From Pseudomonas sp. PGPPP3 (lineage in GTDB: Bacteria; Pseudomonadota; Gammaproteobacteria; Pseudomonadales; Pseudomonadaceae): a DNA stretch of 10,396 nt. How positions within the stretch are numbered: the first letter of the stretch is position 1; each line of letters starts with the position of its first letter. Location: contig NKIE01000061.1 in the NCBI GenBank assembly GCA_002256055.1, forward strand, positions 1 through 10,396, given 5' to 3'. This document shows positions 1-10,396 of the stretch, in pieces. Position numbers and translations under genes: made by a program. Below the pieces are notes generated by a model. It did no database searches, had not been told where the DNA came from, and worked only from the letters and a program-made list of their open reading frames with translations.

Positions 1-1579
1 TGTAAGTCAGGGCCATCACATACGCCTTACCGGTGGTCTCAACGTTCAAGTCGGCATAAGGGTTGTACACCACACTGTCGATCCCCGAACAGTTGACGTT
101 ACAACTCGTACCCGCCGGAATGCTCTGTTTCGACACCAAGTAGTTAAAGCCCAGGTCGATGACCGTGTCCTGATCCCAGCGATAACCCACGCCGAGCCCG
201 TACAGGTCCGCATCGCCCAAGGGCACCAAGGCATCAGCCTTGTTCCCCGGGATGGCCGCAGGCCGAGGCTCATAACCGGCACGCAAGCTCAGCCTCTCGT
301 TGACGTCATACTGCATGCCCAGCGCCCAACTCCATACCGACTCGTAACCGCGATCCAGAATGATGGATGTGGCAGTAGCGCTCTCAGGGGAGAAAATTCG
401 CGCAATTTTCAGCATGTCCAGCTCGCGATCAAACTTCAGCTCGAAGTTTTCCCACGCGGCATAGTCGGTCCACTTTACGTCCAAATTAAACTGCCACTGA
501 CTGGCAGGTTTGAGCTTGATCCCAGTGGAAAAATGCTGTGGATAGGTAAGATCCATCGACACATTGCCACGCTCTTCGTCAACATTACCATCGGGGGTAA
601 TGCTGTTGAAAACAGCTCCGAACAGCGAGCGATCCAATCCCTGCCAGAAGCCCTTCCAGTTCTCCGTGTAGTCGACAGTGTACTTGCCCTGCATATGCAT
701 TTTGGCTTCGCTCTGGTAGACCGCCCCCCAGGCAAACCAGTCAGTAGGCTCCCAGAGGACACCCAGGTTCCAGGTCGGCGCCAGCGACTGTTGCATGTCC
801 ACATCGAGGTTGGCCAGATTGGTGAAGGGCCCAAACTCGCCACCGCAAATATTGATCAACACTTCGAATGGGTTGCCCTGCACCGTACAAAGTGCGTCTT
901 GAGCCACCTTGGTAAAGCCCGTGAGCAGATTGGGCGCGCGAAAATCCTGATTGAGCGCCAGAGCTTGGTGCGAAAAATTGATCGACAAGCCAATCGCCAG
1001 TTCGTCATTCATCTGGTAACCCAACGACGGCGAGAAGTAGGTGAGCCGCTGCATCACCACTTCCTTGCCCTGGTAAGCAGCGGGGTCATTATCATCGCGG
1101 GTAAAACCCAGGGCCTGCGGGGTATAGACGTTGGTGGCAAAGGTCAGTTTCGAGCCTGGTGGGTTGATCGACAACCCAGCCAGGGGCATAAACAGTAAAG
1201 GCAGCTCAGTTGCACCGCCGAGGCCTGGCAAGTACACAGCCGGCGAAGTGGTGCGACTGGACGAGTTGGCCACAGGGTCATTTTTCAAGCCGAGAAACTT
1301 GCTGCCGTAATTCGCCGGCGCATCGAACTCCGCACGAATATCCATCACCCCGGTAATGAACTTCATCGTGGTCTTGCGCCCCTTGAGTTTGGTCAGGGCT
1401 GCCGGGTTGTAATGCACTGCATCGATGCCACTGTAATCAGCGGTAATGGCGTTGCCCATGGCCATGGCCTTGGGATTACCAATCGTCAGGTTTTGCGCCA
1501 ACTGCGCCTGGACCGCGCTGCTCAAGAGCAAAGTCGCCCCGGCAATCGCCCGCGCAAGCGGCGAAAATCGCATAGTCAT
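1..1579 (-). CDS. FadL/OmpP1-family outer-membrane transport protein, 3' end outside window
   Basis: This is a partial gene: 526 codons are visible and the reading frame is still open at position 1. It begins with a typical signal peptide (residues 1-25, ending VQA). The mature N-terminus carries the FadL-type hatch signature, GNPKAMAMGNA followed by DYSGIDAVHYNPAAL, with NPAAL at about residues 58-62. The rest alternates aromatic and polar residues like a beta-barrel. E. coli FadL is about 446 residues, so this member is long. FadL proteins take up hydrophobic compounds through the outer membrane. As last visible gene of a secretion cassette it may instead serve surface assembly, as suggested for FilD-like proteins (inference). 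I chose the ATG at 1579 because a weak GAGAA precedes it; ATG 1573 is possible. The gap to the upstream barrel gene is 18 bases, so the two are probably co-transcribed. Four cysteines (231, 245, 493, 497) are unusual for this family. The last visible residues (GKAYVMALTY) look like the final strand, so little may be missing. Confidence 0.88.
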   Translation of the reverse strand, partial: MTMRFSPLARAIAGATLLLSSAVQAQLAQNLTIGNPKAMAMGNAITADYSGIDAVHYNPAALTKLKGRKTTMKFITGVMDIRAEFDAPANYGSKFLGLKNDPVANSSSRTTSPAVYLPGLGGATELPLLFMPLAGLSINPPGSKLTFATNVYTPQALGFTRDDNDPAAYQGKEVVMQRLTYFSPSLGYQMNDELAIGLSINFSHQALALNQDFRAPNLLTGFTKVAQDALCTVQGNPFEVLINICGGEFGPFTNLANLDVDMQQSLAPTWNLGVLWEPTDWFAWGAVYQSEAKMHMQGKYTVDYTENWKGFWQGLDRSLFGAVFNSITPDGNVDEERGNVSMDLTYPQHFSTGIKLKPASQWQFNLDVKWTDYAAWENFELKFDRELDMLKIARIFSPESATATSIILDRGYESVWSWALGMQYDVNERLSLRAGYEPRPAAIPGNKADALVPLGDADLYGLGVGYRWDQDTVIDLGFNYLVSKQSIPAGTSCNVNCSGIDSVVYNPYADLNVETTGKAYVMALTY

Positions 1580-1597
1580 GAGGTTCTCGCTCGCCGC

Positions 1598-2602
1598 TTA
1601 AGGGGCCTTGAGGCCTTTGATATCCAGGGGCATGGACAGCCCCAAGAGCACATCCGGCGAGTCTTCCGTCATACCGAAACCGGCGTTGATGTTGACGATG
1701 TAATCCGGCGAAGTCCTCAAGCCCAGCGAGAAGTTCATCAGCGCACTGGTCTGCTCACTCCCTTCAACCTCGGCATCGCTGAAGGTGTAAGTCGGCTTAA
1801 GGGTGTATGCCATTTGATAGGACGTGGATAACGACACGTCATACGACAGCGCGTAAGCAAAACCCATGTTGTAGGAAATGGTCGAACCGGGTTCAACCTT
1901 GGTCAGCAGGCGTCCACCACGAACCTGATCGACGTCATCAACAGGCAGGTTGTAGGTGTAACCAAGGGAGCCGAACAGCACCACCTGTTCGATAACGTAG
2001 GAAACGTCGGCACCACCACCGATGCTGTAATAACCGCTGCCAGTAGAGAGCCCTTTGCCCTCATTGACGTCATACGGGCTTTGCCCTGTGGGCAAACCCA
2101 GGGTGGCATACAACGTAGTAACCGGTTTGCCACGGGTAGATGACCACGGCTGCCAGCGCAAACTGGTGGAAACATCCCCAAGGCTGTAAGCATCTAGGCT
2201 GCGCTCGGTGTCGTAAACGGCCACCAGCGGCAAACGGATGCTGAAGGTCAAGTTGTCCCAGACGCCATAGTCAAAGGTGAACGAGTTGGTAAAGGTGTGC
2301 TGCGCTTCGCTTTGCCCCACCACGCTGTAGATATTGTTGCCAGTACGAAAGGTCTCGATGACCACATCGCGAACCAAGGAATAATCAAAGCCATAGGTCA
2401 GCGTACGCTCACCTTTTTTCAACAAGGTGTAGCTCTGCTCAGAGGCCTGGAACACCTGTTCAAGCGCCTTGGCACTGTCGGCATCATCATCCTTCTTGCC
2501 CAAGGCTTCTCGTGCCTGCTCGACTGCAGGCTCGTCGGCCCAGGCAAACCCGCCCACCAATAGCGCCAGCATGGCCAGCCATGCCCTACTCCGAACTACC
2601 AT
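1598..2602 (-). CDS. Predicted outer-membrane beta-barrel of FapF/FilC type
   Basis: This 334-residue protein probably forms an outer-membrane pore. Residues 1-22 are a signal peptide (hydrophobic MLALLVGGFA, ending AWA before DEP). A charged, Ala/Lys/Glu-rich segment follows at about residues 23-60 and is likely helical or coiled-coil. The rest (from about KGERTLTYGFDYSL) consists of alternating strands with many Tyr, Ser and Gly and turn motifs such as GVWDNLTFSIRLPL and GLPTGQSPYD, consistent with a barrel. A helical plug followed by a barrel is the layout known for FapF, the amyloid secretion channel of Pseudomonas; I propose the same role by analogy. I chose ATG 2602 because GGGGA lies six bases upstream; GTG 2605 is an in-frame alternative. 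It follows the C39 peptidase stop by about 36 bases. I recognise the type, not a specific named gene; a MetA-pathway-type transporter family is an alternative label. Confidence 0.82.
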   Translation of the reverse strand: MVVRSRAWLAMLALLVGGFAWADEPAVEQAREALGKKDDDADSAKALEQVFQASEQSYTLLKKGERTLTYGFDYSLVRDVVIETFRTGNNIYSVVGQSEAQHTFTNSFTFDYGVWDNLTFSIRLPLVAVYDTERSLDAYSLGDVSTSLRWQPWSSTRGKPVTTLYATLGLPTGQSPYDVNEGKGLSTGSGYYSIGGGADVSYVIEQVVLFGSLGYTYNLPVDDVDQVRGGRLLTKVEPGSTISYNMGFAYALSYDVSLSTSYQMAYTLKPTYTFSDAEVEGSEQTSALMNFSLGLRTSPDYIVNINAGFGMTEDSPDVLLGLSMPLDIKGLKAP

Positions 2603-2638
2603 CACGCATCCCCGATATCTTGTTGTTATGGCGGGTCG

Positions 2639-3400
2639 TTACTTACGACGGATATAGCGAATATCGCCCTGTGAACCGAGTTCACGGACCTCGTTCTGGT
2701 TAAATTTACTGATCTGCGGAAACTCTCTGAACGCCAGCAAACTGATCGTTCTGTCATCGATGATGCGCAGGTCATGATCCTGCAAAGCCAAGGCGTTCTG
2801 TGGCTCCTGGCCACTCGGAAAAATCACGAAGACCACATCGTGGTCCCAGATCTCCTGAAAACGTGTACGGGTGAAGCTGATATTGCCCAGCGAAGGGTCA
2901 GCGACAAAAACATGATCGTTGTAGACATCACGCAACACGACAAAATGCTTAAAACCGGCATAGGTAATGGGCACTATTGCCGGATGTTCAAGCTCTTCCA
3001 AGTCTGAGAAATCCGCCTTGAAACCGCCACTCTTGTAGCCAAGAGCTGAGACAAAACGCTTCATATCCAGCAGGGAAAACCCCCGCCGCTCGACGATCTT
3101 GTCAGCCTCGCCAAAGCGTAATAAACCGTCCATAACCTGGCGCTCTTGCAAGTTACGACCCAGGTAGTAGTCCAACAACGTGGTCAAGGCCGCCGAGCCA
3201 CAGCTGTAGTCGTAGGCCTGGCGAATCACATTACGAAACTGCAGTTGGCTTTTCGGTTCCAGCACCACCGACTCACGTAACGGCCCGCTGGAAAGCGACG
3301 ACTGAGTGATATTGACCGTACCCGGCGCAGCCGGTTTGGTATCCACGGCTTCGGTAAAACCGAACAGTCCGATCAGGCTACCCAGCAGGATCTCAATCAT
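2639..3400 (-). CDS. C39-family cysteine peptidase, FapD/FilB-like
   Basis: This 253-residue protein is a stand-alone C39-type papain-fold peptidase, probably facing the periplasm. Residues 1-19 (MIEILLGSLIGLFGFTEAV) are a short hydrophobic export or anchor segment. The catalytic set is visible: Gln61 and Cys67 in RQAYDYSCGSAALTTLL, His152 in AGFKHFVVLRDV and Asp168 in VFVADPSLG. No ABC-transporter domains follow, unlike bacteriocin-processing C39 transporters. Instead there is a charged tail of about 55 residues ending IRYIRRK. FapD, the same kind of peptidase, is part of the Pseudomonas functional amyloid operon, and a C39 protein also occurs in the Acinetobacter fil set. The likely client is the small secreted protein encoded just upstream (inference). 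I chose ATG 3400; GGAG is 12 bases upstream, rather far, and GTG 3409 is an alternative. A longer TTG start at 3457 is unlikely because it would place the terminator stem inside the coding region. Confidence 0.88.
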   Translation of the reverse strand: MIEILLGSLIGLFGFTEAVDTKPAAPGTVNITQSSLSSGPLRESVVLEPKSQLQFRNVIRQAYDYSCGSAALTTLLDYYLGRNLQERQVMDGLLRFGEADKIVERRGFSLLDMKRFVSALGYKSGGFKADFSDLEELEHPAIVPITYAGFKHFVVLRDVYNDHVFVADPSLGNISFTRTRFQEIWDHDVVFVIFPSGQEPQNALALQDHDLRIIDDRTISLLAFREFPQISKFNQNEVRELGSQGDIRYIRRK

Positions 3401-3428
3401 TCGCGTCACACACTCCAGACACCGGCAG

Positions 3429-3464
3429 AAAAAAGCCTCACCGACCCAGGCCGGCAAGGCTTTT
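3429..3464 (-). terminator. Intrinsic terminator or attenuator inside the cassette
   Basis: On the minus strand AAAAGCCT (3464-3457) pairs with AGGCTTTT (3438-3431), an 8-bp stem, with an inner CCG/CGG pairing across two mismatches and an 8-base loop, followed by a run of six T. It lies 26 bases after the stop of the small secreted protein and 28 bases before the C39 start. Such a site lets the first gene be expressed more than the rest by partial read-through. The flanking A/T runs make it potentially bidirectional. Confidence 0.78.
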
Positions 3465-3489
3465 GTAGATTCAGCTCAAGCGAGCCGAA

Positions 3490-3951
3490 TCAATGACCCC
3501 ATACTTTGATGGTGGTGCCGGACATGTTGATATCGGAAATAGCCAGCGCACCGATGCTGGCAGCGCCAGTGGTCGCACCGTTAGCGTAGGTGCCGCCAAC
3601 ATAGATGCCGCCAACCGATACAGTACCGGTCATTGCAGGCAGGCTGATGGCCAACTGTTCAGTTTGATTACCGCCGATGGTGGTGGTTACCACATCAATT
3701 TTCAAGGGATTGGAGTCCGCGATGGAAAAGCCGGTGAAGCTGATGTTGGTCAGGTTCAGGCTGCCACCAGCGGCATCGTTGTCGGTGTATTTAACGTTAC
3801 CAACGCTACCGGAGAAGTTACCGGAAATGCTGATACCGTCCTGACCGGTTACGCCGGACAGAGCGGAGTCATCCATTGCAGTCATGTCGGCCTGAGCCAT
3901 GAACGGAGCAGCGAGTACAGCAGCGGCGAAAGCGAGTTGTTTAAGTTTCAT
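3490..3951 (-). CDS. Small secreted DUF6160/FilA-like protein
   Basis: This is a 153-residue secreted protein. Residues 1-21 (MKLKQLAFAAAVLAAPFMAQA) are a clean signal peptide. The mature protein starts DMTAMDDSALSGVTGQDGIS, the short signature I associate with the DUF6160/FilA group. The remainder is rich in Gly, Ser, Thr, Ile and Asn, has no cysteine, and alternates hydrophobic residues as in a beta-solenoid or aggregating beta protein. It ends MSGTTIKVWGH. Two segments, GSLNLTNISFTGFSI and GALAISDINMSGTTIKV, share a spacing pattern and may be two rungs of one fold. I chose ATG 3951 because GGAG sits nine bases upstream; an in-frame TTG at 3966 overlaps that ribosome site and is unlikely. 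As first gene of the cassette, followed by a terminator, it is probably the abundant product and the cargo of the downstream peptidase and barrel. A pilus- or amyloid-like role is inference. Confidence 0.85.
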   Translation of the reverse strand: MKLKQLAFAAAVLAAPFMAQADMTAMDDSALSGVTGQDGISISGNFSGSVGNVKYTDNDAAGGSLNLTNISFTGFSIADSNPLKIDVVTTTIGGNQTEQLAISLPAMTGTVSVGGIYVGGTYANGATTGAASIGALAISDINMSGTTIKVWGH

Positions 3952-4191: not shown

Positions 4192-4196
4192 TCAGG
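4165..4196 (-). terminator. Probable intrinsic terminator overlapping the LAL gene stop
   Basis: On the minus strand CCTGA (4196-4192) pairs with TCAGG (4175-4171), with an inner GCGC/GTGC pairing (one G-T) around ATGG, followed by six T (4170-4165). The TGA stop of the upstream regulator (4194-4192) forms part of the stem. The stem is short and has unpaired bases, so strength is moderate. If active, it separates regulator transcription from the secretion cassette. Confidence 0.55.
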
Positions 4197-6912
4197 CCTC
4201 ATTCAACAACCCCATGCTTTTGCCCTTGAGTACAGCCTGGGTGCGGCTACGCACCCCAAGCTTGGCGAATAGATTGTGCAAGTGCCATTTGATCGTGGCC
4301 TCTGACAAATGCACCGCCTGAGCGATATCACGGTTGGATAAACCGGCCGCGACAAAGCGCAAAATCTCCCGTTCTCTATGGCTAACATCTTGATTTTCAT
4401 CGAAAGTATCAGGATCAACTGCCAGTCGCCGGCACTGCTCGCGGAGGCCCTCGGCCACCCCTTGCCAGACGCTAGCGCACTTGGGTTCCGCTGCCGCCCA
4501 AGCATCCCAGAGCGGTAACAGCCACAGGGCATCGTCCTGAAATATGCGCCGATAACCGCGTGTCCAGGCCTCTTCCAGCGTTGAATGGAACAAGGCAAAG
4601 GCTTTTTCGCTGTTACCTTTACGCCAATACGCTACTGCGAGTAACAACGAAACCCGCAGTCGCCGATCCCGCTGATGTTCATCTGCAGGCTTAACCAGAC
4701 ACGCTTCGAGGCAGGCTTGTGCCTTTTCCGCACGGCGCTCACTGAGCGCCAACCGGGCTTCGGCCAACGCAAGGGCGATATGCGCATCGGGATAGCGCGC
4801 AGCAGGCAACACCGCCAAGTGCTGCTGCAACTGCAGGCATACTCTTTCCGCCTCATTGGGACGGCGCAGCCACAGCAGAAACTGCACCTTGCAGCTCATG
4901 GAGAAGGCAAACACCCGTTCGTACCCGGGGCGCTGCAAGTCGGCTAGCCATTCGTCTAACTGAGCCAGCCCTGACTCGGCCTCGCCGGCAAAAAAACGCG
5001 CGCGCGCCATCACCAATTGTCCACGACTGATCAGCTCAACGGGCGTAGCCACATCGCGCCAGGTAGTGGCCAATGGCAGCTCAGCCAGAACGGCAGCGTG
5101 CCGATCCTGCTCGTACAAAAGGTCCGCATAGGCAAGCACCAACGGCCCGCCAACCCGGCTACGGCGCCCGAACACCCGCTCCACCCGCGCACGCGCCGCC
5201 TCCGCGATGGAACGACCCCGTTCAAGATCACCGGCCTCCTTGCAAATCAGCACTTCGATCAGACTGGTCATCACATGCAGGTATTCACTGTCGGCAGCGC
5301 CCAAATAGCTGCGCGCAGCAGCAATCGACTTGGCCGCCTCAGCAAAGTCGCTGAGCAAGGCGTACGCAGCTGCCTGCACGCAGACCATGCTGGCACGAAA
5401 GATCGGTTGATCACCTGGCACCATGCTCAACCATTGCCGCGAAACCTTGAGGCAGCTCTCCAGCTTGTCCTGATACAGCAACACCAACGCTTTGAGGATC
5501 TGCGCCGCGACCAGCAACTCGGCCAGACCAAAGTGCATGGCCTTGCCGCGCCCTTGCATCAGACGCGTACTGACCTCCTCAATCAGCGCCTCGGCCTCGG
5601 CATACTTCTGCTCGAAGGCCAGTTGCCAGGCATAGAAAATCTGAAACACCGGATGTTCGCGAATCACCTCAACCGGCACGCTATTGAGCATGCTCAGCAC
5701 GCCATACACGCGATTACCGGCAATCAGCCGCGCCCCCTGACGCTCAAGCATTTCAGCTGCAAAGCTGTAGTCACGACCGCGCAAGGCGTACTTGATCGCC
5801 CGGTCCGGCAAGTCTCGGGCCTCACACCAGCGCGCGGCCGCATTCAGCAGCGCCGCCGTATCACCGCGACGCGCCAACCGGCCCTGAAGAAACTCGGCAA
5901 ACAGGTGGTGATAGCGAAACCACTCGCCCTGCTCGTCCAGCGGAATGACAAACAGCTGCTCACTTTGCAAACGCATCAGCATATCGAGGCCGTCGCGCCG
6001 CCCGGTCAGGGCATTGCACAACTCGGCACAAAACTCATCTAGCACCGAAGTCTGATCGAGAAACAGCTGCAATTCGGCCGGTAAGCTATCGAGCACATCC
6101 TCGGCCAGATAATCGGCAATATTGCGCTCGGTACCCGACAAACCCGCCAGAAAGGCTGCCCGATCAGGATGCCGCGCCAAGGCAAGCGCCGCCAAATGCA
6201 AAGCGGTGATCCAGCCCTCGGTACGCGCTTGGAGCAAATCCAGCTCAGCGGAGCTCAGTTCGATTTTTTTGATTTGCAGAAAGTAAGCCGCCGTTTCTTC
6301 ACGGCTAAGACGCAGATCTTCGGCCATTAACCAGAATGCCCAGCTATCGGCATCCTGCTCGCCACTGATAAACCGCGGTTTATAACGGGTGCTGACGACA
6401 AGCCGTACGTTCTTCGGCAGCGACTTCAGGAGATAGCGTACGGCCTGCCCCAAAGCGAGATGACGAATACGATGAAAGTCATCAAGCATCAGATAGATAT
6501 CACCGTCCAGGCGCTTCAAATCCGCCACGAAAGCATCGACCAAGGCTTCCACCGGCCAGCTAACATCACCCGGCACCAAGCCTGCCGAAGTGCTGGAAAA
6601 GGATGGCGCCACGGCTTCGATGGCGGCAGACAAATACTGCAACAAGCGGGCGGGCTCGCTGTCCGCCTCATCACAAGACAGCCAGGCTACGCGTGCGCCC
6701 TCGCGCATCAGGTGCTGGCGCATCAGGCTAAGCACGGTGCTTTTACCAAACCCAGCAGGCGCGCTAAGCACCACCAATCGCTGCGCACGGGCAGCCATAA
6801 GGCGCTCAATCAAAGCACTGCGTGGTAACAATGTCGGAGCACCGGCATCGGCCGGAAACAACTTGGTGCGCAACAAAGGCACCGGTGACAGCGGAGGCAA
6901 AGTAGTGATCAT
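4192..6912 (-). CDS. MalT-type (LAL) LuxR-family transcriptional regulator, distal copy
   Basis: This 906-residue protein has the full layout of large ATP-binding LuxR (LAL) regulators such as MalT (901 residues) and AlkS. The N-terminal STAND ATPase shows Walker A at residues 51-59 (APAGFGKST) and Walker B at about 141-149 (LMLDDFHRI). A sensor-like VVSTRYKPR follows near 172-180, then a long alpha-helical, TPR-like middle region from about residue 350 to 830. The C-terminal GerE-type helix-turn-helix covers about 844-900 (SHREREILRFVAAGLSNRDI, then TIKWHLHNLFAKL). These proteins bind ATP and an inducer, multimerise and activate transcription. The start ATG overlaps the stop of the upstream homologue (ATGA) and has only a weak ribosome site, suggesting translational coupling. 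It lies directly upstream of the secretion cassette in the same orientation, so it is a candidate activator of it. The inducer cannot be told from the sequence. Confidence 0.93.
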   Translation of the reverse strand: MITTLPPLSPVPLLRTKLFPADAGAPTLLPRSALIERLMAARAQRLVVLSAPAGFGKSTVLSLMRQHLMREGARVAWLSCDEADSEPARLLQYLSAAIEAVAPSFSSTSAGLVPGDVSWPVEALVDAFVADLKRLDGDIYLMLDDFHRIRHLALGQAVRYLLKSLPKNVRLVVSTRYKPRFISGEQDADSWAFWLMAEDLRLSREETAAYFLQIKKIELSSAELDLLQARTEGWITALHLAALALARHPDRAAFLAGLSGTERNIADYLAEDVLDSLPAELQLFLDQTSVLDEFCAELCNALTGRRDGLDMLMRLQSEQLFVIPLDEQGEWFRYHHLFAEFLQGRLARRGDTAALLNAAARWCEARDLPDRAIKYALRGRDYSFAAEMLERQGARLIAGNRVYGVLSMLNSVPVEVIREHPVFQIFYAWQLAFEQKYAEAEALIEEVSTRLMQGRGKAMHFGLAELLVAAQILKALVLLYQDKLESCLKVSRQWLSMVPGDQPIFRASMVCVQAAAYALLSDFAEAAKSIAAARSYLGAADSEYLHVMTSLIEVLICKEAGDLERGRSIAEAARARVERVFGRRSRVGGPLVLAYADLLYEQDRHAAVLAELPLATTWRDVATPVELISRGQLVMARARFFAGEAESGLAQLDEWLADLQRPGYERVFAFSMSCKVQFLLWLRRPNEAERVCLQLQQHLAVLPAARYPDAHIALALAEARLALSERRAEKAQACLEACLVKPADEHQRDRRLRVSLLLAVAYWRKGNSEKAFALFHSTLEEAWTRGYRRIFQDDALWLLPLWDAWAAAEPKCASVWQGVAEGLREQCRRLAVDPDTFDENQDVSHREREILRFVAAGLSNRDIAQAVHLSEATIKWHLHNLFAKLGVRSRTQAVLKGKSMGLLNEA

Positions 6913-9623
6913 GGTTCAAGCAAACTCAATTCACGGACGCGACGGATGGCCTGGGTACGGTTACGCACTTTGAGCTTTTCGTAGATGTTGTGCAGGTGCC
7001 ATTTCACGGTGCCCAAGGCCAGGGACAGTTGCTTGCCGATTTCATCATTGGACATGCCCTTGGCAGCCAGGCAAACCACCTCGCGCTCGCGGTCTGTCAG
7101 CTCATCGTCCAGCCCCTCAGCGGCCTTGCGCACGCTGTGTCCAGGCCAGATGCTCAATAGGCTGCGAATAAAACCCTGCAACGCTGGCTGGCGCTCGGCA
7201 GCTTCCAACTGCTGAAGCATTTGCCGAATGGCAGCGCCCTCCTCGACAAAGAGGCTGCGCACCCCTTCCCGCTCAGCCGCTAGCAAGCACTGTTGCAACA
7301 AACTCTGAGCCCGCTCCTGATAGCCCAGACGCTGGTAACTCAAGGCAGCCAATAGATCTAGGCGTAAGCGCTGCAGGCCATGCCAGTTGGGCTGCAACTG
7401 CCCCCGCAACTGCGTAATCTCGTGCAGTGCCTCACTGTAATTACCCCGCGCCTGCTGCAAGCGAATACGCGCCAGCCCCAGCACCCAACTCACAGGATTG
7501 AACCCCGTCTTGGCGTACTGGCCAGCCATCTTGTTCCAATCGACGCTTTGCAAACGCTGATCGGCGCGTTTGATTCGATCGCTTGCTGGCTCCTGCAAAA
7601 TCAGCGCAACCTCATCGCCCACCGCCAGCGCATAAAAGCGCCAAGACTGATTGCGTGCCGCCAAATTTTGCATCAGCACCAGGCTGGCCAAGGCTTCCTT
7701 GGGCTTGTCCTGCATGCGCTGGCTGCGTGCCAAGCAGAGCATGCCTTGAGCGTAAATATCGATGGGGTTGATCACGTCTACAGTGGCCAACGCCCAGTTG
7801 AGTTTTTCCTCGATACCTTGCACATGCCCCTGCTGATAAGCCACTAGAGCCTCGCCGATGGTCGGCAGCGCCAGCGCCCGCGACCGTTCACCGAACCAGG
7901 GCATGGCCTTGGTACGCATCTGTAAAAACAACTGCTGTGCCTGCTGCACGTGGCCCTGCTCCAGGGCCATAAAGACTTCCACGTTGGTCAGCTGCATATC
8001 CAGGTAGCGACCTTTGAGGAAATGGTTGCGCTGATGGGCCAGCGCTAACAAGCGCCGCGCCTGCTCAGGCTGCACCAGTACAACCTGAGCCAAGGCAGCG
8101 ATAATCAGAATCGCCACTTCCAGAAACGCGTTGTGCTGCCCCAACTGCGGCTCAATCTTGCGCGCCAGGTTGACGCACAGTTCTAGGTCATCCTTCTGCA
8201 GGGCAATGACCGCCTTGACCGCCAGAGCGGCCAGGTAATTGTCATTCAGTTGGCCTTCACTCTTGCCGCCATCCCAGCGCGCCAACAGCTCATCAATCAT
8301 CCGGTTGGCCTCCGGCAAGGCCAGTTCGGAAGCTTTGTCCCAGACCTCGGCCAACACCAGAATCGGATAGCGCTCGGCAATGGCATCTGGCACGTGCTTG
8401 CGCCAGCGATAAATCTGGCTGAGCTGGCCGCGGTTGATCAGCTCCAGGCCACAGCCGTCCACCAGGGCGGCGATCATCTCCGGGTCATCGGCAAGGCAGG
8501 CATGCTCAATGGCCAGGTCCTGCATATGGTGATTGGTAAACCACAGGCTGGCATTGAAGTGCAGCTGCTTGAAGCGCTCCGGATCACGTTCACGCAGGCG
8601 CCCCTGAAGGAACTCGGCAAACAAGTGATGAAAGCGGTACCACTGGCGCTCACGGTCAAGGGGTAGGAGAAACAGCTGCATCGCCTCCAACCGCTCCAGC
8701 AACGCCTGACCATCTGCGCGACCGGTCAAGGCACTGGCCAGCTCGCCACTGAGTTGGCGAGCAATGCCCAGCGCCAACAGCATCTCTTGCATATCGACCG
8801 GCAGCTGCTCAAAGACCGAGCGCAGCAAGTAATCGCCCACGGCCGCCTGACCGGCGCCGATATCCGGCAAGTGGGCGGGAATTTGCGTCTGGTTGCGCAA
8901 CCACAGGCTGGCCAAGTGCACGCCGACCATCCAGCCTTCGGTGTGGCTGTGCAGTTCGCTCAAGGCGCTGGCGTTGAGTTGCAAGCCAAGGCGATCGAGA
9001 TAATCGCGGGTTTCCCCCTCGGTCATGCGCAACTCGTCTGGGCCGATTTCCAACAGCAAGCCTTTGGCGCGCCAAGTGGCCAGGTTCAGCGGCGGCTGAG
9101 AACGACTACCAAGGGCCAGGGTAAAGCCTGCGGGGGCCAGTTGTACCAGGCGATTAAGGGCCGCAAACAGCTCACGATCCTGAAGCAGATGCAGGTCATC
9201 CAGCACCAGCAGCAAGGGTTGCTGCACCTGGGCCAGATCTACCAGCAAGCTTTCCATCACCGCAGCGACCGGCACGCGCATGGTGTTTTGCAGATAACCC
9301 AAGGCATCCTGACCGAGGCCGGGGATGGCAGCGCTAAGGGTTTCAATCAATTGAGCAAAGAAACGCGCCGGGTCGTCATCTTCGCTGGCCAGGGAAAACC
9401 AGGCGACTGCACTGCCGCGCTCCTGACGCGCCTGGGCCATAGCAACCAGGGCGGTGGTCTTGCCAGAACCCGCCGGCGCGGAAAACAGCACCAGGCGTGC
9501 ATTGGGATGGCCAGCCAAGGCCTCCAATACCTGTGGGCGGCAAAGGGAATCACTGGCCGCTTGCGGGGCCGTCAGCTTGGGGCGCAATAAACTGCCGGCA
9601 GCAGTTTGCTGAATACTATCCAT
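6909..9623 (-). CDS. MalT-type (LAL) LuxR-family transcriptional regulator, proximal copy
   Basis: This 904-residue protein is the first of two tandem LAL regulators. Walker A is at residues 48-57 (SAPAGSGKTT), Walker B at 137-147 (LLLVLDDLHLL), and the arginine-containing LALGSRSQPPLNLATWRAKG follows. The central region is helical and TPR-like. The C-terminal LuxR helix-turn-helix covers about 840-897 (DELTDREREVVCLAAKGMSN, then TVKWHLHNIYEKLKVRNRT). It clearly resembles its downstream neighbour in length, order of domains and short motifs, such as HHLFAEFLQGRL in both, but differs over most of its length, so the pair is an old duplication or two related genes brought together. I chose ATG 9623 because AAGGGA lies eight bases upstream. 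The four-base overlap with the next gene implies one transcript. It is divergent from pabB, which is a housekeeping neighbour and probably unrelated in function. Confidence 0.93.
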   Translation of the reverse strand: MDSIQQTAAGSLLRPKLTAPQAASDSLCRPQVLEALAGHPNARLVLFSAPAGSGKTTALVAMAQARQERGSAVAWFSLASEDDDPARFFAQLIETLSAAIPGLGQDALGYLQNTMRVPVAAVMESLLVDLAQVQQPLLLVLDDLHLLQDRELFAALNRLVQLAPAGFTLALGSRSQPPLNLATWRAKGLLLEIGPDELRMTEGETRDYLDRLGLQLNASALSELHSHTEGWMVGVHLASLWLRNQTQIPAHLPDIGAGQAAVGDYLLRSVFEQLPVDMQEMLLALGIARQLSGELASALTGRADGQALLERLEAMQLFLLPLDRERQWYRFHHLFAEFLQGRLRERDPERFKQLHFNASLWFTNHHMQDLAIEHACLADDPEMIAALVDGCGLELINRGQLSQIYRWRKHVPDAIAERYPILVLAEVWDKASELALPEANRMIDELLARWDGGKSEGQLNDNYLAALAVKAVIALQKDDLELCVNLARKIEPQLGQHNAFLEVAILIIAALAQVVLVQPEQARRLLALAHQRNHFLKGRYLDMQLTNVEVFMALEQGHVQQAQQLFLQMRTKAMPWFGERSRALALPTIGEALVAYQQGHVQGIEEKLNWALATVDVINPIDIYAQGMLCLARSQRMQDKPKEALASLVLMQNLAARNQSWRFYALAVGDEVALILQEPASDRIKRADQRLQSVDWNKMAGQYAKTGFNPVSWVLGLARIRLQQARGNYSEALHEITQLRGQLQPNWHGLQRLRLDLLAALSYQRLGYQERAQSLLQQCLLAAEREGVRSLFVEEGAAIRQMLQQLEAAERQPALQGFIRSLLSIWPGHSVRKAAEGLDDELTDREREVVCLAAKGMSNDEIGKQLSLALGTVKWHLHNIYEKLKVRNRTQAIRRVRELSLLEP

Positions 9624-9785: not shown

Positions 9786-10396
9786 ATGCCAATAAGCTCC
9801 GTACACCCACTGCCTTACAGCGCCGACCCTGGTGTCTACTTTGCCCGCCTGCATCACGCCCCCGGCGCCGTGCTGCTCGACAGTGGGCGGCCCGGGGCCG
9901 AACGCGGACGCTACGACATTCTCAGCGCCTGGCCATTGGCAGAGCTGGCACCGGGCACCGACGAATCGGCCAACGACTTCCTCGCACGCCTGCGCCAAAG
10001 CCTGCACAGCCTCGGCCCGGCGACCTTGCCGGCTGAATACGAGCTGCCGTTTGTCGGTGGTTTGTTGGGTTATCTGGCGTATGACTTTGGCCGACGCCTG
10101 GAACCCATGCCGAACCAGGCCGCCGATGATCTGGGCTTGGCCGGAGTTTGCCGTATTGTCGAGATAGAGGCTTTCGGTGGTGGCGGCCGCGACGGTGTAG
10201 GAGTTGGTGTTGTCGAACGAGAGGGTGGAAACGGTCTTGTCGCCGTTGAGAGTGACGGTTCCCGGGGAGGTGAGCGTGTTTCCAAGGATCGCGGTGGCAC
10301 CAGAGGCATTTGGGACGCCTGCACCGGTCCAGTTGCCAGCCGTGGCCCAGTCACCGCCGGTCGTGGAAGCCCAGTCGGAAATGACGGAAGCGGTGA
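9786..10396 (+). CDS. pabB: Aminodeoxychorismate synthase component I, N-terminal part, joined to foreign sequence
   Basis: PabB with PabA makes 4-amino-4-deoxychorismate from chorismate and glutamine for p-aminobenzoate and folate synthesis in the cytoplasm. The frame opens MPISSVHPLPYSADPGVYFA, then GAVLLDSGRPGAERGRYDIL and VGGLLGYLAYDFGRRLE, typical of the N-terminal TrpE/PabB domain in Pseudomonas. About 119 residues match (to DDLGLA, near 10142) of a usual total of about 450. The chorismate-binding catalytic domain is absent from the window. Beyond 10143 the frame stays open to the end but reads as Gly/Val/Arg-rich nonsense, because the coding sense there is on the other strand. The true pabB part is therefore 9786 to about 10142 and the remainder is a join artefact or rearrangement. 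There is no strong ribosome site; the start was chosen by similarity to the family. Confidence 0.87.
   Translation, partial: MPISSVHPLPYSADPGVYFARLHHAPGAVLLDSGRPGAERGRYDILSAWPLAELAPGTDESANDFLARLRQSLHSLGPATLPAEYELPFVGGLLGYLAYDFGRRLEPMPNQAADDLGLAGVCRIVEIEAFGGGGRDGVGVGVVEREGGNGLVAVESDGSRGGERVSKDRGGTRGIWDACTGPVASRGPVTAGRGSPVGNDGSG
10143..10394 (-). CDS. Fragment of autotransporter-associated beta-strand-repeat protein (foreign sequence)
   Basis: About 84 codons on the minus strand are open at both ends. They read SDWASTTGGDWATAGNWTG, then GVPNASGATAILGNTLTSPG, TVTLNGDKTVSTLSFDN and TESLYLDNTANSG. The W-x-NWTG-x-GVPN opening followed by TVTLNGDKTVSTLSFDN is the style of autotransporter-associated beta-strand (PEP-CTERM-linked) surface proteins that are common in Verrucomicrobia and Planctomycetes and not in Pseudomonas. 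The recognisable reading stops where pabB begins near 10142, although the frame remains open into pabB antisense as far as a stop at 9777. There is no start or stop of its own in the fragment. The family call is from pattern memory and the phylum is inference. Confidence 0.6.

Follow-up and report, generated by a model that had tools for sequence, protein, structure and literature searches.

What might a small protein, a stand-alone C39 peptidase, an outer-membrane barrel and a FadL-family protein, encoded side by side in Pseudomonas sp. PGPPP3, build or export together? This question is raised by the 10,396-nucleotide stretch of DNA analysed here (the window), for which an earlier note had proposed four consecutive minus-strand genes resembling the Fil and Fap systems.

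The fil cassette and its neighbours

All four cassette genes were confirmed among the open reading frames (ORFs) on the minus strand of the window, and the cassette is a Fil operon, consisting of FilA (DUF6160), FilB, FilC and FilD, with two regulators upstream:

filA, 3490..3951, minus strand: DUF6160 (PF19657) protein of 153 aa, predicted filament subunit precursor (Pfam E 3e-24)
filB, 2639..3400, minus strand: stand-alone C39 peptidase, 253 aa, with Q61/C67/H152/D168
filC, 1598..2605, minus strand: FapF-like outer-membrane barrel with an N-terminal segment
filD, 2..1579, minus strand: FadL family, running into the contig edge
R1, 4192..6912, minus strand: MalT-like LuxR regulator (profile matches), next upstream of filA
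R2, 6909..9623, minus strand: MalT-like LuxR regulator (profile matches), overlapping R1 by 4 bases

FilA, which lacks Cys when read from its ATG, as had been claimed, scored 85 bits against PF19657 (Pfam cut-off 27) and 44 bits against NCBIfam pilus_FilA (E 1e-11, under the 220-bit cut-off). The parallel to both Fil and Fap was upheld by the peptidase and the barrel: FilB matched NCBIfam FilB (NF050078; E 1.1e-87, 294 bits against a cut-off of 475 bits, which none of 293 genomes of the order reached) and the FapD model (E 2e-34, 118.9 bits, under the 330-bit equivalog cut-off), while FilC matched NCBIfam FilC (E 7e-89), the FapF model (E 8e-17, 61.1 bits, under the 700-bit equivalog cut-off) and FapF in the PDB (E 6.5e-12 over residues 142-326). 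FilD belongs, as noted earlier, to the FadL family (PF03349, E 3e-92) and matched NCBIfam FilD (E 5e-159); it reads as 526 aa against 529-530 in three relatives, and about four residues and the stop codon are therefore lost at the contig edge.

The A-B-C-D order includes homologues of both FilC and FilD, and the gene order, whose lack of conservation in relatives had been named beforehand as a possible refutation, was conserved: filB, filC and filD followed one another on one strand in 80/80 loci kept out of 389 found. BLAST detected FilA at each of the 60 loci of Pseudomonas type and at 5 of the 20 others, and a motif scan revealed leader-bearing proteins in several more of these 20. R1 and R2 were conserved neighbours across the loci compared. 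In the relatives scanned, the gene following filD encodes a MalM-domain protein (over the Pfam cut-off in two and only below it in a third); the window contig ends in filD.

The same genes in the same order make up the fil operon of Acinetobacter (NCBIfam pilus_FilA to FilD). That operon, described as a 'putative pilus', has been reported in pellicles of this genus (PMC3203104) and presented as a source of vaccine antigens (PMC4751259). An unannotated A. baumannii stretch, read by eye, encodes FilA with the leader MDDAALSAATGQ, a FilB 49% identical to that of the window, FilC, FilD as two ORFs, and a FilE-like and a FilF-like gene, with three further DUF6160 matches approximately 1.4 Mb away. 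The Pseudomonas locus differs in that all four of its proteins fall under the NCBIfam 'exception' cut-offs, in its two upstream MalT-like regulators, and in the FilF-like gene, of which no counterpart was noticed when four loci of Pseudomonas type were read as ORF lists, a format that can hide overlapped genes.

FilA and a solved pilus-like filament

Three segments were predicted in FilA:

residues 1-21, 3889..3951, minus strand: predicted Sec signal peptide, MKLKQ...AQA
residues 22-37, 3841..3888, minus strand: double-glycine-like leader ending MDDSALSGVTGQ, with a predicted FilB cut after Q37
residues 38-153, 3493..3840, minus strand: predicted mature beta-rich subunit, ending WGH

Signal-peptide residues A19 and A21 were invariant in the FilA alignment (A2). 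The leader behind the signal peptide is absent from the earlier note.

FilA matched PDB entry 9xfv by profile (E 2e-13), and its AF2 model (mean pLDDT 70, moderate) found chain 9xfv_A with Foldseek (E 9.5e-6), with a TM-score of 0.48 and a Z just under 8, a value that alone could mean a common arrangement. This entry is a pilus-like filament (pilus-like-alpha) from a cave sample, made of 25 copies of one chain, for which our literature search found no describing paper. The chain covers residues 38-210 of its DUF6160 precursor, which is 210 residues long, and the 37 residues missing from the chain are a Sec signal peptide and a segment ending GQ. The layout of FilA is the same (signal 1-21, leader 22-37, then D38), the bodies are homologous (E 4e-5) and both end in W-x-H, although the mature 9xfv chain is 57 residues longer. 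The 9xfv precursor comes from Burkholderiales; that order was absent among the named organisms in the best 120 of 3209 FilB homologues. The start of a chain in a cryo-EM structure can reflect the onset of order instead of a cut.

Placed in the 9xfv filament family by both subunit sequence and fold, FilA very probably supplies the subunits of a hair-like, pilus-like surface filament, which would form in Pseudomonas. The earlier statement that no fibre component is visible was not borne out, since the one chain from which a solved filament is built is a homologue of FilA, while the suggestion that the small protein is cargo gained ground: FilA is the likely cargo. That FilA instead forms cross-beta fibres, as a Fap-like functional amyloid, would be in keeping with the kinship of FilB and FilC to FapD and FapF and with a Gly/Ser/Thr-rich FilA, but it sits poorly with the match to a pilus-like subunit, and we regard it as highly improbable. 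The window ORFs, as the earlier note held, include no FapB/FapC-type gene (upstream of filB lie only filA and the regulators), and a FapC query, run without a positive control, found no match in the genome. The FilB model likewise found only FilB, and no FapD, in this genome (assembly approximately 81% complete), whereas in the same run it found FapD in other genomes.

The leader, its relatives and the FilB peptidase

At C39 cut sites, position -1 is usually Gly, Ala or Ser. The segment MDDSALSGVTGQ fits C39-type double-glycine leaders (L/M-12, L-7, V-4, G-2) with Gln at -1, a residue present in all 41 genuine rows of the FilA-type alignment of 42 (row 42 being a chance frame in filC); rare paralogues end in GG, GA or GS in place of GQ. 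The -12, -7, -4, -2 pattern and the C39 fold are shared with Microcin V/PCAT systems. Fil departs from these in two ways: its peptidase carries no fused ABC transporter, and its leader follows a Sec signal. As conservation extends past the predicted cut (DGISI), the motif is something more than a leader alone.

FilB combines the C39 fold with the catalytic-site Gln, Cys, His and Asp, and the earlier assignment of Q61, C67, H152 and D168 stands, these residues being invariant in 38/38 aligned sequences. Frames of FilB, printed for 77/81 sequences, have M(I/F)EILL or a corresponding Met as their common start; a longer, TTG-started filB ORF was rejected, its upstream part not being conserved. The N-terminus is hydrophobic and without positive charge, and FilB may be exported to the periplasm. 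There it would trim FilA after Sec export, as the protease acting on the FilA leader.

Conservation on both flanks of GQ, together with a Gln at -1 that is atypical for C39, could also be accommodated if LxxVxGQ(D/A)G were an uncut docking or structural segment guiding Sec-exported proteins to FilC, with FilB acting on another target or as a chaperone and the start of 9xfv due to order or another protease. We consider this unlikely, given that 9xfv lacks exactly residues 1-37, ending GQ, that the spacing and the GG/GA/GS variants fit a C39 leader, and that all four catalytic-site residues of FilB are kept throughout the aligned sequences.

Leader-bearing DUF6160 proteins dispersed in the genome lay outside the earlier reader's view. 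By raw genome counts, not corrected for kinship, such proteins accompanied FilB in 11/11 genomes of the genus sample and 38/38 of the order sample, against 0/238 (over cut-off) and 2/255, respectively, of the genomes without FilB. The sole DUF6160 match of genome G082 was weak (E 0.0015). In the genome of the window, the 12-residue leaders of FilA and five further leader proteins agree at 5-9 positions, whereas the bodies (that of C699 interrupted by Ns) reached E 0.015 at best in BLASTP; the C403 protein, of 348 aa, fell under the DUF6160 cut-off (E 0.0064). Shared descent in place of a shared leader was rejected on these grounds. A chance leader was also rejected: the generic pattern occurred in 2/49 signal-like frames from 20-kb stretches taken at 20 arbitrary places in genomes with FilB, both resembling membrane segments by eye. 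The home-made Sec-signal rule used in that test is a rough yardstick, because it missed many leaders in non-Pseudomonas fap-type loci, where -4 varies and the distance between signal and leader is sometimes greater.

Membership of FilD in the FadL family, and the resemblance of FapF to COG4313 uptake channels (PMC6173800), might suggest a cassette for hydrophobic-solute uptake in which FilA would bind the solute in the periplasm; this seems most improbable, as it accounts for neither the filament homologue nor the C39 peptidase, and explains neither the leader nor its presence in dispersed paralogues.

A proposed Sec-then-C39 route shared with Fap

We think it likely that the Fil operon builds a pilus-like filament by Sec export, FilB trimming and FilC exit of FilA. 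FilA would be synthesised as a precursor in which a short leader of double-glycine type comes directly after the Sec signal peptide; after Sec export and removal of residues 1-21 by signal peptidase, periplasmic FilB would bind the leader (M-12, L-7, V-4, G-2) and cut after Gln37, and mature FilA (38-153) would leave through the FapF-like barrel FilC and polymerise. FilD and a FilE-like protein, whose gene would follow filD beyond the window contig as in relatives, may be accessory. The other Sec-exported leader proteins, encoded elsewhere, could likewise pass by way of FilB and FilC, to serve as minor subunits or as surface proteins of another kind.

The Fap system of Pseudomonas (FapD, FapE, FapF) likewise has a stand-alone C39 peptidase and a related barrel, and FapE, the suspected FapD substrate, carries such a leader at the same place as FilA, right behind its signal peptide. 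Its leader ends RGR/RGK and not GQ, and the Fil cargo differs in being DUF6160. Proteins at loci L187, L229 and L230, whose leaders end RGK or RGR, matched the FapE model (E 8e-14 to 3e-25, below cut-off). Proteins with GG at the leader end that lie next to FapD-type peptidases in other genera were rejected as FapE after a check with that model and are called neighbours, because the match at L185 was partial (residues 9-60 only, E 1e-4) and L180 gave none. A 2017 Fap paper calls the FapD target unclear and describes the Fap proteins as without canonical C39 sequences (PMC5557850), while a 2025 review gives FapD as thought to process FapE and FapF (PMC12822426).

FapD and FapE may follow the same Sec-then-C39 logic, and we lean, with some reserve, towards a general Gram-negative route in which surface-filament and amyloid proteins bear such a leader straight after the Sec signal, periplasmic FilB or FapD removes it, the FapF/FilC barrel exports, Fil pili form a distinct class (9xfv), dispersed leader proteins are co-exported and FapE is the FapD substrate. 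For FilA (after Q37) and for FapE (after RGR), the leader allows the position of the cut to be predicted precisely. It also links the putative-pilus operon of Acinetobacter to a solved filament and to DUF6160, a family of unknown function. If FilB trims FilA, a substrate of a poorly understood peptidase family would be shown.

Gene content and conservation of the fil locus

The operon in the window, one entire contig of a fragmented assembly (914 contigs, ~81% complete), is a Fil system, an already known operon type. Its genes are listed below with the two regulators upstream.

Genes of the window in transcription order
9623-6909, minus strand: R2, MalT-like LuxR regulator, first in transcription order
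6912-4192, minus strand: R1, MalT-like LuxR regulator, overlapping R2 by 4 bases
3951-3490, minus strand: filA (NCBIfam FilA, E 1e-11; Pfam DUF6160)
3400-2639, minus strand: filB (NCBIfam FilB, E 1e-87; Pfam Peptidase_C39)
2605-1598, minus strand: filC (NCBIfam FilC, E 7e-89)
1579 to contig edge, minus strand: filD (NCBIfam FilD, E 5e-159; Pfam FadL)

The gaps R1-filA, filA-filB, filB-filC and filC-filD measure 240, 89, 33 and 18 bases, respectively. None of the four proteins reached the strict 'exception' cut-offs of the NCBIfam FilA-FilD models; NCBIfam also matched FilB to FapD (E 2e-34) and FilC to FapF (E 8e-17), and a Pfam scan of FilC gave no match. The nearest named relatives of FilB are from Pseudomonas. 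On the plus strand, pabB similarity ends at 10142, and the last 254 bases (10143-10396), which do not continue pabB and on the minus strand resemble a repeat-rich surface protein, are probably a chimeric contig end.

Genome contigs were scanned with FilB as query and the best 80 of 389 loci retained, all 80 of which carry filB-filC-filD co-directionally and in the same order. FilA was present by BLAST in all 60 Pseudomonas-type loci (L035-L094, Pseudomonas and near kin) and in 5 of the remaining 20. The tandem regulators (4192-9623 in the window) are retained beside the fil genes, both being present by BLAST in 58 of the 60 Pseudomonas-type loci (L036 and L046 start within R1), and were not found by BLAST in any of the other 20 (Alcanivorax, Marinobacter and others). 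In six loci with inspected ORFs, genes that we take to be thrH- or pabB-like lie upstream and, in some, presumably prp-type genes downstream. A FilE-like protein with DUF4124 and MalM (PF07148) domains follows filD at L040:13477-14637.

FilB residues Q61, C67, H152 and D168 were invariant in 38/38 aligned sequences. C39 peptidase domains match the core of its AF2 model (mean pLDDT 69; block means 80-93 over residues 71-200), among them those of 6mpz, which contains a leader, and 6v9z, which contains a substrate. At L165, from the otherwise fil-positive genome G255, the FilB match is interrupted by one in-frame TAA.

The FilA leader and a solved filament homologue

In FilA, a signal peptide (residues 1-21) is followed by DMTAMDDSALSGVTGQ and then DGISISG. 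Counted back from its GQ end, this leader has in common with that given for microcin V, MRTLTLNELDSVSGG (PMC10231218), a hydrophobic residue at -12, L-7, V-4 and G-2. With fap loci excluded, 97 distinct rows passed the strict pattern and Sec filter (42 FilA-class, 55 others), eight of which were judged by eye to be chance frames (one and seven, respectively). With these removed, Q occupied -1 in 41/41 FilA-class rows, while the 48 others had Q (42), R (3), A (1), G (1) or S (1), the A/G/S-ending leaders being LEDNELSGVQGA (contig C403 of the window's genome), VSDNDLSGVTGG (L127) and MNDDAMAEVKGS (L009).

The FilA AF2 model (mean pLDDT 70) falls below 50 as a stretch only at residues 31-37, the GQ junction, the last three residues aside. 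Its sole PDB match at E <= 0.001 was 9xfv_A (Foldseek E 9.5e-6), also related by sequence (phmmer E 4.7e-5; profile E 2.1e-13), from an entry whose title describes a pilus-like structure of karst-cave origin, with 25 chains of 173 residues each. Residue 1 of the 9xfv chain aligns to FilA D38. A 210-aa precursor (P0001, Burkholderiales MAG PBB6) is identical to it at 144/144 visible chain residues, a comparison covering P0001 38-142 and 172-210, with chain residues 106-134 outside it. As the entry is numbered 38..210 and P0001 residues 1-37 are the signal peptide plus ...IDDSTLSTVSGQ, the solved subunit begins exactly at the hypothesised cut. At the other end, FilA residues 151-153 read WGH against WAH in 9xfv. 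Among 113 leader-bearing closed frames from the fetched loci, which include near-identical Pseudomonas FilA, 96 have [GA]H at the C-terminus or one residue short of it, and 60 of those 96 finish with W-x-H as in 9xfv; this conserved end may matter for export or polymerisation.

Dispersed leader-bearing DUF6160 proteins

Besides FilA, DUF6160 matches in the window's genome lie on contigs C699 (one) and C403 (three), making five in all. On C403 (L115:1116-6148), four overlapping genes encode proteins of 782, 201, 348 and 349 aa, each with a signal peptide and leader, the 348-aa protein scoring under the DUF6160 cut-off. One leader of this cluster ends in GA. The bodies of the leader proteins in this genome are unrelated or barely related to each other, and, judging by the matches listed for other FilB-carrying members of the genus, a C403-type cluster seems to be conserved far from filB.

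In a genus sample of 249 genomes, FilB (E <= 1e-40) occurred in 11, all with 3-6 DUF6160 matches and, from rows read by hand, at least one on another contig or ~0.9 Mb or more from filB; DUF6160 exceeded the Pfam cut-off in 0/238 genomes without FilB, three of which had borderline matches (18-19 bits). In an order sample (293 genomes; DUF6160 at E <= 0.01; FilB at >=160 bits, a threshold chosen post hoc at a break in scores from 161 to 126 bits), all 38 FilB genomes had DUF6160, G082 weakly (E 0.0015), as did 2/255 without FilB (G026, 75% complete, and G081, below the cut-off). By hand count of the printed rows, which omit some, 34/38 had DUF6160 on another contig or >20 kb from filB, the exceptions being G049, G133 and G160 (16-19 kb) and G082 (position not printed). 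In a phylum sample of 398 genomes, nine had FilB of the window's class and 9/9 had DUF6160; of the 389 without, G635 was above the DUF6160 cut-off and G081 below. The three samples overlap, and because exact-test p values ignore kinship, weight is placed mainly on the within-genus contrast.

Parallels in Fap loci and a proposed maturation route

Two papers call the target of FapD unclear (PMC5557850, PMC6173800). In 15/15 Pseudomonas fap loci, FapE carries such a leader directly after its signal peptide (e.g. LKDQELANLRGR); two of these proteins, the two scanned, passed the FapE profile cut-off. A looser pattern gave a candidate in 46/50 FapD-type loci and none in L176, L193, L224 and L236, although L176 shows LSLETLDRQRGG by eye; about 44/50 remain, since visual inspection discounts the sole matches of L191 and L221 as leaders. 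True GG endings occur in LSDPELSEYRGG (L185) and LTDIELEQQRGG (L180), whose proteins stand in FapE's place but match its profile weakly or not at all, and were not accepted as FapE; more distant FapE relatives (L187, L229, L230) end RGK or RGR. Thus one kind of leader precedes unrelated bodies beside these peptidases.

At L191:3711-4930, two signal-peptide proteins (LTSAQMDGVSAG, LSAPQLDAVTAG, as if AG-ending) adjoin another stand-alone C39 gene. A FapF-like ORF at L221:3089-3463 has an RGG motif (LATKRGG) between helical part and barrel; FapD cleavage of FapF at this kind of position has been suggested (PMC5557850).

In the open literature, with subscription journals and preprints mostly outside the search, we found neither the proposed Fil maturation step nor the proposed filament identity. 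The gene identities, the leader, the co-occurrence of FilB with DUF6160 and the start of the solved chain are direct observations; from them we infer that FilB is the protease for the FilA leader, that FilC is the exit channel and that the filament forms in the window's organism. FilA would be exported by Sec, its signal peptide being removed by signal peptidase after export; FilB would cut it after GQ, and mature FilA would leave through FilC and polymerise outside the cell. The over-expression reported for Acinetobacter FilF in pellicles (PMC3203104) and for FilC and FilF in solid-liquid biofilm (PMC8792954) is consistent with a surface role for the Fil system.
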